53,511 nucleotides of DNA, taken from Planctomycetes bacterium TMED75. GTDB lineage: Bacteria; Planctomycetota; Phycisphaerae; Phycisphaerales; SM1A02. Location: NCBI GenBank assembly GCA_002171655.1, contig NHEC01000062.1:1-53511 (forward strand), written 5' to 3'. Made by a program: the position numbers and the translations under genes. The stretch's first letter is position 1, and the number at the start of each line of letters is the position of its first letter. Under the pieces are notes generated by a model, which did not search any database, was not told the origin of the DNA, and saw only the letters and a program-made list of their open reading frames with translations. Of this stretch, positions 145 through 3,004 are shown piece by piece.

Positions 145-1338
145 ATGACCGACGCGTCCGCACCCAAATCCGGTTCCTACCAGGTCTTGGCCCGGCGTTA
201 TCGCTCTCGATCCTTCGACGAACTGGTCGGTCAGCAGGCGATCATCCGGACGCTCAGAAACGCCATCGAACACCAACGAACCGCGCATGCCTATCTTTTC
301 TGCGGAACCCGGGGGGTTGGGAAGACTTCAGCCGCCCGAATCTTCGCCAAGGAATTGATGTGGCACGGACTCACTGCACGCGGAGAGTCGCTGCCTGCCG
401 ATTCGGTTTCGGATGCGATCTTTCGGGGTGAGGACATCGACGTGGTTGAGATCGACGGTGCCAGTCACAACGGTGTGAACGAAGTTCGTGAGCTGATCAC
501 CAATTCCGGACTGATGCCGGCGCGGATGCCCTACAAGATGTACATCATCGATGAGGTGCACATGCTCAGCACGCAGGCGTTCAACGCGCTGCTCAAGACC
601 ATGGAGGAACCACCGGATCATGTGAAGTTCGTTCTCTGCACCACCGAACCTCAGAAAGTTCCGCAGACCATCCAGAGTCGCTGTCAGCGTTTTGATTTCA
701 GGACGATTCCCGACCGTCAGATCGCAGCTCATCTCGGAGAGATCCTGGACAGCGAAGGCATCGGCTTTGATGATTCGATTCCCCTGGAAGTGGCTCGGCT
801 TGCCGACGGTTCAATGCGTGATGCGCTGACCTTGATGGACCGGGTGGTCGCTGCGGCGGACGGTGAACTGGGAACCGGGCTGCTCGCGGACGTGCTGGGT
901 CTGCCCGACGAGTCCCTGCTTGCCGCCTTGGTGCAGTCGATTGCCGAACGTGTTCCGGGCTCCGCGCTGGAGGCCGCAGGCGAACTGCTTGCCAATGGGA
1001 TGTCTCCCGGACATCTCCTCGATTCACTGGCGGAACGTCTCCGCCGGCTGATGGTGGTGTCGACCTGTGGAACCGATTCTGAACTGTTGGGAATGACCGC
1101 CGATGCCGCCGATCGCTGTGCTCAGCTGGCCACCAGTTTCGACGCCCCCTCGCTGGTGCACATGATCGTCGCGTGCGACGCCGGATCCCGGCAGGTACGC
1201 ACTTCCGGAACCCCACGGGCACTCATGGAGGCGATCCTGGTGCGACTTTGCTTCGTCGAGTCGTTTGCCCAGGCAGCAGGACTGCTCAGTGAAGGGGCCG
1301 CGGCTCCGCCAAAAAAAGGAGCAGCCCGGGCGCGTTGA
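145..1338 (+). CDS. dnaX: DNA polymerase III gamma/tau subunit, zero-frame (gamma-like) product
   Basis: DnaX is the ATPase core of the clamp loader that places the sliding clamp on DNA. The 397-residue product has Walker A GTRGVGKT (54-61), Walker B IIDEVH (134-139), a sensor-1-like CTTEP (about 165-169) and the SRC arginine-finger motif (178-180), followed by the lid and collar region. It ends soon after domain III, where a gamma form would end. The zinc module normally found between Walker A and Walker B is missing its cysteines: there is none between residues 54 and 164. The last codons run over seven A residues (1311-1317), and the tau-like C-terminal part continues in the -1 frame. Together with ybaB and recR this is the usual dnaX-ybaB-recR operon. 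No strong ribosome binding site precedes ATG 145. Confidence 0.95.
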   Translation: MTDASAPKSGSYQVLARRYRSRSFDELVGQQAIIRTLRNAIEHQRTAHAYLFCGTRGVGKTSAARIFAKELMWHGLTARGESLPADSVSDAIFRGEDIDVVEIDGASHNGVNEVRELITNSGLMPARMPYKMYIIDEVHMLSTQAFNALLKTMEEPPDHVKFVLCTTEPQKVPQTIQSRCQRFDFRTIPDRQIAAHLGEILDSEGIGFDDSIPLEVARLADGSMRDALTLMDRVVAAADGELGTGLLADVLGLPDESLLAALVQSIAERVPGSALEAAGELLANGMSPGHLLDSLAERLRRLMVVSTCGTDSELLGMTADAADRCAQLATSFDAPSLVHMIVACDAGSRQVRTSGTPRALMEAILVRLCFVESFAQAAGLLSEGAAAPPKKGAARAR

Positions 1339-1352
1339 GTGACGCGACCGGG
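1292..1352 (+). promoter_or_regulatory. Candidate programmed -1 ribosomal frameshift site in dnaX
   Basis: Three elements occur in the order known from E. coli dnaX. An SD-like AAGGGG lies at 1292-1297. A slippery heptamer A AAA AAA lies at 1311-1317, in zero frame CCA-AAA-AAA. After a 7-nt spacer comes a hairpin: CCCGG (1325-1329), G, CGCG (1331-1334), an 8-nt loop (1335-1342), CGCG (1343-1346), A, CCGGG (1348-1352). The zero-frame TGA (1336-1338) sits in the hairpin loop. Slipping back one base leads without a stop into the 1335-1931 frame. In E. coli the shift shortens the protein, whereas here it would lengthen it. A homopolymer miscount (true length A8) is the main alternative. Confidence 0.72.
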
Positions 1353-1931
1353 CCTCGAATTCCGCCCCGTGGATCCTCGGTGCCTCCCGGACGTGGCAAA
1401 CGAGCGCCCAATCTGATCGCGCTGCGATCGGCCCCGCCGGATCCGGTTCCGAGTGACGACCGAACCAACACGGCTCCCGCGACCTCCGCGCCACCTGCGG
1501 AGTCTGAACCCGAGTCACCTCTCGACGCCGAGGCGATCTGGACTCAGACCCTGGAGCATGCCTCGCAGCGGACCGCTGACGACGCGATCGTGAAGGAACT
1601 TGAGTTTGATGGTGGCCAGGCGGACCGACTCCGACTGCGGCTGGTTGATTCCAGAACGCCCACCGCCGGGTTCATCCAATCCAACCCCGAACGCATAGAA
1701 AAAATCGTGCAGAAGGCGATCGGCCGTCGGATCAGGGTCGAGGTCATCACGCCCGTCGCACCGGAGCAGGCTTCCGTGCCGACTGCCGACGATGAGGCAA
1801 TTGTCGAGAATCCCCTCGTTCGCAAGGCCGTCGGCCTGTTCGACGCTACGATTCACTCTGTGCGAAAGCTTCCCGGTCGTTCTGAAGATGCTTCCGAACC
1901 TCCACAGTCCCCTGACTCCAACATGGAATGA
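1335..1931 (+). CDS. dnaX: DnaX tau-like C-terminal extension, -1 frame of dnaX
   Basis: This reading frame is open from the A7 run at 1311-1317 through the end of dnaX to 1931. The first possible start is a TTG at 1335 that overlaps the dnaX stop codon. The product is a Pro/Ala-rich linker (about residues 1-60) followed by a small alpha/beta domain (about 65-140) that begins AIWTQTLEHA, and a tail NPLVRKAVGLFDATI. This layout resembles the C-terminal region of many DnaX tau proteins, which ends in a similar segment. I infer that it is made mainly as a fusion: residues 1-391 of DnaX, six codons (RSSPGA), then this frame, giving about 595 residues. Independent translation from TTG 1335, using GGAG at 1318-1321 (13 nt away), is possible but weaker. 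Confidence 0.75.
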   Translation: MSDATGPRIPPRGSSVPPGRGKRAPNLIALRSAPPDPVPSDDRTNTAPATSAPPAESEPESPLDAEAIWTQTLEHASQRTADDAIVKELEFDGGQADRLRLRLVDSRTPTAGFIQSNPERIEKIVQKAIGRRIRVEVITPVAPEQASVPTADDEAIVENPLVRKAVGLFDATIHSVRKLPGRSEDASEPPQSPDSNME

Positions 1932-1937
1932 GTACCG

Positions 1938-2312
1938 ATGTTTGATTCACTTCGAGGTATGGCTGGCATGGCCGGCATCATGAAGGACCTTCCCCGGATC
2001 AAGGAACGACTCGGTCAGGTCAAGGACGAAGTTGCTCGTCGCGAGGTGGAGGCCACCACCGGAGGTGGGGCAGTCACGGCCGTCGCCAACGGGCGATTGC
2101 GAATCGTGCGGATCGAGTTCGATCATTCCCTGCTCTCTGCTCTGGTCGAGGGTGACTCCGAAGAGGACCGGGCGCTGGCTTCCGATCTGGTCACTGGGGC
2201 CTGCAACGCCGCACTTGAAAAGGCTCAGGAGATGATCACCTCTGCGCTCAGCGAAGCTGCGGCTGATCTGGGTTTGCCGATTCCAGCGGGCGCACTTGAA
2301 GGTCTGCTCTGA
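1938..2312 (+). CDS. ybaB: YbaB/EbfC family nucleoid-associated protein
   Basis: This 124-residue protein is a small dimeric DNA-binding protein of the YbaB/EbfC family, thought to act in nucleoid organisation. It shows the family layout: an N-terminal amphipathic helix (MKDLPRIKERLGQVKDEVAR), a central beta region with GGGAVTAVANGRLRIVRIEFD in which the G-V-A-NG pattern is typical, and a C-terminal helix rich in Ala, Glu and Met. Length is slightly above the usual 100-115. It starts 6 nt after the tau-frame stop and ends 8 nt before recR, so the three genes are probably one transcript. Confidence 0.93.
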   Translation: MFDSLRGMAGMAGIMKDLPRIKERLGQVKDEVARREVEATTGGGAVTAVANGRLRIVRIEFDHSLLSALVEGDSEEDRALASDLVTGACNAALEKAQEMITSALSEAAADLGLPIPAGALEGLL

Positions 2313-2320
2313 GGCACAGT

Positions 2321-3004
2321 ATGTCTGTTTCCAACTCCGCCTATCCCGATTCCGTTGACCGACTCATCGAGGAATTCGCCTCGCTTCCGGGAATCGGTCG
2401 CCGCAGTGCGGAACGTCTGGCCTTTCATGTACTCAAGGCTTCCAAGGAGGAAGCGATGGGCTTGGCGCGAGCGATCGATGAGGTCAAGAGCAACGTCGGC
2501 CACTGTCGCATCTGCTGGAACCTCACCGACACCGACCCCTGTCAGTTGTGTTCCGACACCCGCCGCGAGCATTCTCGAGTCCTGGTGGTGGAGCAGCCTC
2601 GGGACCTCATTGCGCTTGAACAGACGGGCATGTACCGGGGCGGGTACCACGTCCTGCTGGGTCGACTTGATCCGCTGGCGGGGGTGGGGGAGGAGACGAT
2701 CACTCTCGACGGGCTGCTTCACCGGGTTCGCGAGTCTTCCACCAATGCCAACGAGGAGCCCGTGGAGGAAGTCATCCTGGGGCTGAATCCGGACATGGAA
2801 GGTGATTCCACGGCTCTGTTGGTTGCCGAACGGCTTGAAGAAGCCGGAGTCCGGGTGACTCGACTCGCGCGGGGACTGCCCTCGGGCTCCCAGATCGAGT
2901 TTGCCAATCCTGCGGTGCTTGCCGACGCGATTCATGGCCGTTCCTCGGTTTCCGAGGGCGATGTGGCTTCGAAGGCCTCCCTGGACCCACAAAACGGGGG
3001 TTGA
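2321..3004 (+). CDS. recR: Recombination mediator RecR
   Basis: RecR works with RecO (and RecF) to load RecA onto SSB-coated gaps. The 227-residue protein has an N-terminal helix-hairpin-helix (LPGIGRRSAERLAFHVL, about 22-38), a four-cysteine zinc finger with C62, C65, C74 and C77 (CRIC...CQLC), and a Toprim domain with VVEQPRDLIALE followed by ILGLNPDMEGD. The C-terminal SVSEGDVASKASLDPQNGG tail is somewhat longer than in most RecR proteins. It is the last gene of the dnaX-ybaB-recR set. Confidence 0.96.
   Translation: MSVSNSAYPDSVDRLIEEFASLPGIGRRSAERLAFHVLKASKEEAMGLARAIDEVKSNVGHCRICWNLTDTDPCQLCSDTRREHSRVLVVEQPRDLIALEQTGMYRGGYHVLLGRLDPLAGVGEETITLDGLLHRVRESSTNANEEPVEEVILGLNPDMEGDSTALLVAERLEEAGVRVTRLARGLPSGSQIEFANPAVLADAIHGRSSVSEGDVASKASLDPQNGG

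Follow-up and report, generated by a model that had tools for sequence, protein, structure and literature searches.

An inverted dnaX gene in a planctomycete, with tau probably made by −1 frameshifting at an A_AAA_AAA site

The stretch of DNA considered here (the window, 53,511 nucleotides) is contig C120 of a draft MAG of 2.98 Mb, which comprises 125 contigs and is 79% complete. Close to the start of the window, and on the forward strand, dnaX is followed by ybaB/ebfC (1938..2312; PF02575) and recR (2321..3004; from the ORF list and a domain scan), the usual order of these genes. Frame 0 of dnaX (145..1338) extends from ATG 145 to a TGA at 1336–1338 and encodes a gamma-type product of 397 aa, with the AAA+ ATPase, lid and domain III (PF13177, PF22608, PF12169). 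The TGA lies 18 nt past a run of seven A residues (A7, 1311..1317), giving a product of gamma length. From the A run, the −1 frame is free of stops up to the TGA at 1929–1931, 6 nt before ybaB/ebfC, and holds a tau extension of 204 codons (1317..1931, forward strand) that starts RSSPGALSDATG. A −1 shift at the run would add these 204 residues to DnaX residues 1–391 to give a tau of 595 aa. Across the junction, frame 0 reads CCA AAA AAA GGA GCA GCC CGG GCG CGT TGA, and the −1 frame, from the A run, AAA AAA AGG AGC AGC CCG GGC GCG TTG. The predicted junction of tau is APPKK-RSSPGALSDATGPR; tau should contain the peptide SSPGALSDATGPR following KK-R, and gamma should end in GAARAR. We refer to this layout, with gamma in frame 0 and tau in the shifted frame, as inverted.

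The run forms a candidate slippery heptamer, A_AAA_AAA (CCA AAA AAA G), in the in-frame X_XXY_YYZ arrangement of a −1 site (phase 2), and the phase is the same in all 33 A7 loci of the family to which the window's genome belongs. After a spacer of 6 nt, within the 5–8 nt looked for in a stimulatory stem-loop, comes a hairpin at 1324..1353 on the same strand, identified by folding and from relatives: GCCCGG-G-CGCGUU-GAGU-GACGCG-A-CCGGGC. Its 12 bp are arranged as two stretches of six (1324–1329/1348–1353 and 1331–1336/1341–1346) on either side of one G-A mismatch (G1330–A1347), with the loop GAGU and the frame-0 TGA at the apex. The 28-nt core of the hairpin has a folding energy of −18.2 kcal/mol (z −4.3), equalled by none of 200 shuffles, and the 48 nt past the A run are more stable than every control window from the same gene. 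A run of A7 is unremarkable by itself (four matches over the two strands vs 1.75 expected); the remarkable feature is that it is conserved in relatives together with the hairpin, the stop and the frame change.

Much of this had been described in the original prediction. The A7 run with its −1 frame change stands on the sequence and the ORFs, the joining of residues 1–391 to the −1 frame with no intervening stop is confirmed on the sequence, and the inverted layout (397-aa gamma in frame 0, 595-aa tau by the shift) is borne out by ORFs, homology and relatives. The hairpin is real, but it had been given as a 9-bp stem at 1325–1352 with a 7-nt spacer, which understates its length and overstates its distance from the run; the TGA, placed within the loop, is indeed at the apex but begins in the top pair and runs into the GAGU loop. 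What did not hold is the SD-like stimulator, AAGGGG (1292..1297, forward strand), that was to make the cassette complete. When anti-SD duplex energies were ranked against windows of the same gene, this element reached a rank of only 0.24 (0.43–0.68 in three relatives), and it is neither conserved nor supported in the window's clade. A7 loci do on average show a strong SD-like duplex (−8.1 against −5.4 kcal/mol), the window's clade being the exception. Such a stimulator is found in E. coli dnaX; not all −1 frameshift genes require one.

The −1-frame extension is homologous to the C-termini of tau proteins encoded by single ORFs in the family (hhalign probability 99.8%, E 1.6e-27, 192 columns); profile comparison thus places the tau C-terminus in the shifted frame. 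The two share the motifs W..v...a......L.f and ENPlVR.A.elFDAtI.sV, and a Pfam scan of the extension gave no match. In comparisons of pairs that include the window, pN/pS is 0.56–0.75 in the −1 frame and at least 1.07 in the other two; over all ten pairs of five genomes, the values are 0.56–0.88 and at least 0.84, respectively. All five loci recovered from the genus (three genomes) and its sister genus (two) have an inverted dnaX. The shift site is A7 in four of them and G_GGA_AAA in the fifth (L006, sister genus), where GGGAAAA replaces the run and is read TCG GGA AAA GCG, with the hairpin kept (z −3.3). In the relatives, the frame-0 TGA again lies 18 nt past the run, in the loop of the equivalent hairpin. 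Across the five sequences, the hairpin has two compensated pairs and 83% of its cells are paired, against 29–45% for slid versions, although with only five sequences shuffles score equally well for covariation.

Since five assemblies share the layout, the −1 frame is homologous to tau and pN/pS is lower there, these comparisons indicate that the frame change is a conserved coding arrangement and not an indel error. The original prediction had argued against a simple sequencing error and had proposed a comparison with other Phycisphaerae; the recurrence there of the run, hairpin and frame change upholds the former and rules out an error in the A run. A sequencing or assembly error, or a real indel that made a pseudogene, might be suspected in a fragmented and incomplete draft MAG such as this, yet we give the idea almost no weight: the assemblies that share the frame change are independent and span two genera, one of them lacks A7 altogether, the −1 frame is conserved as protein, and a hairpin folds in the 48 nt downstream in 5/5 loci. 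Termination followed by reinitiation, which would yield a stand-alone tau domain from TTG 1335, also appears distinctly unlikely. The TTG overlaps the stop (TTGA), and AAGGAG at 1316–1321 sits 13 nt upstream of it; however, the corresponding triplets in the five relatives (TTG, TTG, CTG, CTG and GTG) are what any N before TGA would give, the AGGAG is unconserved, and the heptamer and its phase would be left unexplained.

The dnaX cassette of E. coli consists of A_AAA_AAG, the SD-like AGGGAG and an 11-bp stem-loop, and dnaX of Thermus thermophilus depends on transcriptional slippage at a run of nine A residues (A9). The window's gene resembles that of E. coli in having, at the same position in the gene, a −1 site of tandem lysine codons and a hairpin a few nt downstream. 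It differs in that the roles of the frames are reversed, the site is A_AAA_AAA, no SD-like element is conserved and two tRNA-Lys genes are present. The earlier likening to an inverted E. coli scheme therefore stands for the inversion, the heptamer and the hairpin, but not for the SD, nor for the site itself, which is not A_AAA_AAG. As in Thermus, the A run is at the junction between domain III and the tau region; unlike in Thermus, it is an A7 that keeps to one phase and is followed by a hairpin, and frame 0 does not yield tau.

The inverted scheme has been known since 2013 and is uncommon; the window adds a case, and the family-wide pattern described below is new evidence. Antonov et al. (2013; PMC3711429) describe dnaX genes that need recoding for tau, in a GeneTack cluster of 17 genes from 12 genera, give A7 for the inverted dnaX of Chlorobium phaeobacteroides, and favour transcriptional slippage for most inverted dnaX genes. 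Atkins et al. (2016; PMC5009743) noted the reversal, for which one nucleotide change can suffice; they also mention, as unpublished, E. coli-like stimulators in C. phaeobacteroides. Compared with the 2013 cluster, the window is alike in having gamma in frame 0 and tau via a −1 shift at an A run, and unlike in that phase-locking, the hairpin and the G_GGA_AAA relative favour ribosomal shifting. In the literature found joining dnaX, planctomycetes and frameshifting, the 2013 paper was, judging by titles, abstracts and term counts, the only one on dnaX recoding, and its available part does not name planctomycetes for dnaX. Two things make the case of wider interest. A long and presumably essential product depends on the slip, which makes the frameshift visible in the sequence and allows homology and selection to be examined in the extension. 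Natural variants of one gene are also on offer in the family (A9/A10 in any phase, A7 plus hairpin in either polarity, and G_GGA_AAA) and in another family described below (C_CCY), with which it becomes testable why gamma is kept and how slippage by polymerase and by ribosome replace each other.

We consider it very probable, judging from the sequence features, that the window's dnaX uses programmed −1 ribosomal frameshifting to make tau and ordinary termination to make gamma. The hairpin would slow the ribosome while its P and A sites hold AAA AAA; paused ribosomes could then move back by one base on the A_AAA_AAA heptamer, read AAA AAA AGG AGC and continue to the 595-aa tau, and those that did not slip would stop at TGA 1336 and release the 397-aa gamma. 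The slip should be an efficient one, since tau would be expected to organise the replisome. The site, hairpin, frames, homology and conservation are read from sequence, and it is from these that we infer the occurrence of the slip, its ribosomal nature and its level. Evidence for a ribosomal shift includes G_GGA_AAA in L006, which suits −1 tandem slippage and has an A run too short for slippage by RNA polymerase. The frameshifting reading also gains from another family of the same order (f2, genus g46), in which dnaX is inverted with G_GGA_AAA in 4/4 loci (L196–L199), including that of a closed genome (G232; one contig, 3.6 Mb). Against it, A_AAA_AAA was less shift-prone than A_AAA_AAG in E. 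coli tests (PMC5009743), no SD is conserved in the clade, and in genus g25 the first 48 nt past the inverted A7 contain no hairpin.

The main rival is transcriptional slippage, in which RNA polymerase would add one A, a fraction of the mRNA would carry A8 and encode tau, and the hairpin would be incidental. The tau protein would be identical, with PKKR either way, and slippage is the explanation preferred for inverted dnaX with A7–A10 by Antonov et al. (2013; PMC3711429). A survey of 111 dnaX loci of the family, from 45 genera, bears on this choice; the loci are related and fall into about six clades, such that the counts are not independent. An A run occupies the same position in nearly all of them. 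In most of the family it is of the Thermus kind: the 68 A9/A10 loci use all three phases, the 48 nt that follow have no excess of hairpins (mean z −0.2), and in the complete loci tau is in frame 0 in all but two, with −1 and +1 stops within 50 nt. The 33 A7 loci, from eight genera, are without exception read xxA AAA AAA (X_XXY_YYZ phase), and a hairpin follows in most (mean z of the next 48 nt −2.0), genus g25 excepted. In A7 loci with tau in frame, a −1 stop soon follows (median 5 nt), and the +1 stop is distant (median 85 nt, vs 8.5 nt in A9/A10 loci; Mann–Whitney p 6e-8). Because phase-locking, hairpins and stop distances differ between the two kinds, we interpret A7 as the site of a −1 shift by the ribosome, and A9/A10 as one of polymerase slippage. 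A Thermus-type site would have at least eight to nine A residues, in whatever phase, with both other frames stopped; the window has a phase-locked A7, which is short for polymerase slippage. With the sister-genus GGGAAAA added to this, transcriptional slippage at the window's site seems improbable, if less so than the alternatives considered above. It should be noted that only four phylogenetically independent pairs were available for relating hairpin to site type; most go in the same direction, and the result is not significant.

Some loci of the survey have features of their own. In g25 (L022, L031, L044, L050, L066, L069, L072 and L101), G-rich sequence upstream and C-rich sequence downstream could, in some loci, pair across the A run of the inverted A7. 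No slippery site was found at the junction in two loci of genus g34 (L103 and L105), although A10 is present in a sister locus; the two may have lost the site.

The choice of A_AAA_AAA over A_AAA_AAG may have a simple reason. E. coli has a single tRNA-Lys, the weak pairing of which with AAG makes A_AAA_AAG slippery, and where a dedicated CUU tRNA exists it should hold AAG, as has been argued for Thermus (PMC5009743). Patterns for both tRNA-Lys(CUU) and tRNA-Lys(UUU) were present in 34 of the 36 family genomes searched, including that of the window, and ARAGORN confirmed the anticodons in four loci. Both genes together would account for the site, since an all-AAA heptamer avoids an AAG held by the CUU tRNA.

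Polarity varies within the family. Among the A7 loci, 18 are inverted (g1, g7, g17, g25 and g26) and 15 have the polarity of E. coli (g16, g28 and g45); with G_GGA_AAA, L006 and L111 are inverted and L024 is E. coli-like; and two A10 loci, L060 and L013, are inverted. On the best tree of the DnaX N-terminal region, parsimony requires at least seven switches. The number of independent reversals is nevertheless uncertain because an AU test (p 0.20) did not reject uniting the four main inverted groups in a single clade. Sequence comparison favours several separate reversals, given that genus g26 is split (L024 standard, L063 inverted) and that isolated inverted cases occur in g11, g19 and one locus of g42. 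Inverted dnaX was also found in Phycisphaerales MAGs (L114, L115 and L119), in L117 (Planctomycetota) and in L116 (a Planctomycetaceae MAG). In L196–L199 of family f2, the tau extension is only 69–78 aa and the hairpin variable (z 0.0 to −3.0). Beyond the planctomycetes, inverted A9/A10 runs occur in Opitutaceae MAGs (L165 and L181) and Clostridia MAGs (L146 and L151), and these resemble the 2013 dnaX cluster of Antonov et al.

Another planctomycete family (f14, centre G158) has an inverted dnaX with no A run at all. Frame 0 stops at residue 384–397, and the C-terminal motif of tau is in the −1 frame in 18/18 loci of the family survey; the layout was noted in L266, L236, L239, L251, L267, L271, L258 and L275–L293. 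One to two codons before the stop, 17 of the 18 have a proline codon preceded by C (C_CCC, C_CCT and once C_CCG), against a background of 0.5% (33/6799) for xxC CCY codon pairs in the same genes. A strong hairpin follows in most loci (z down to −6.4); its first stem begins 3–6 nt past the slip codon in 14/17, irrespective of whether the stop follows that codon directly or after one more. In L293, where the −1 frame becomes open just 22 nt ahead of the stop, the shift is confined to those 22 nt. In the 2016 review (PMC5009743), CCC_UGA is listed for +1 and C_CCA_AAG for −1 shifting; C_CCY as a −1 site in dnaX was not found in it, the sole source checked, and the f14 signal may be newer than the window's inverted scheme. 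On balance, we lean towards a picture in which planctomycete dnaX genes have repeatedly exchanged both the level of decoding (ribosome or RNA polymerase) and the frame of gamma and tau, with f14 making tau via a C_CCY −1 site plus hairpin. Finally, in L263 (G206), where frame 0 terminates near residue 385, a long +1-frame ORF of about 240 aa runs past the stop; this is possibly a case of +1 recoding or a separate gene.
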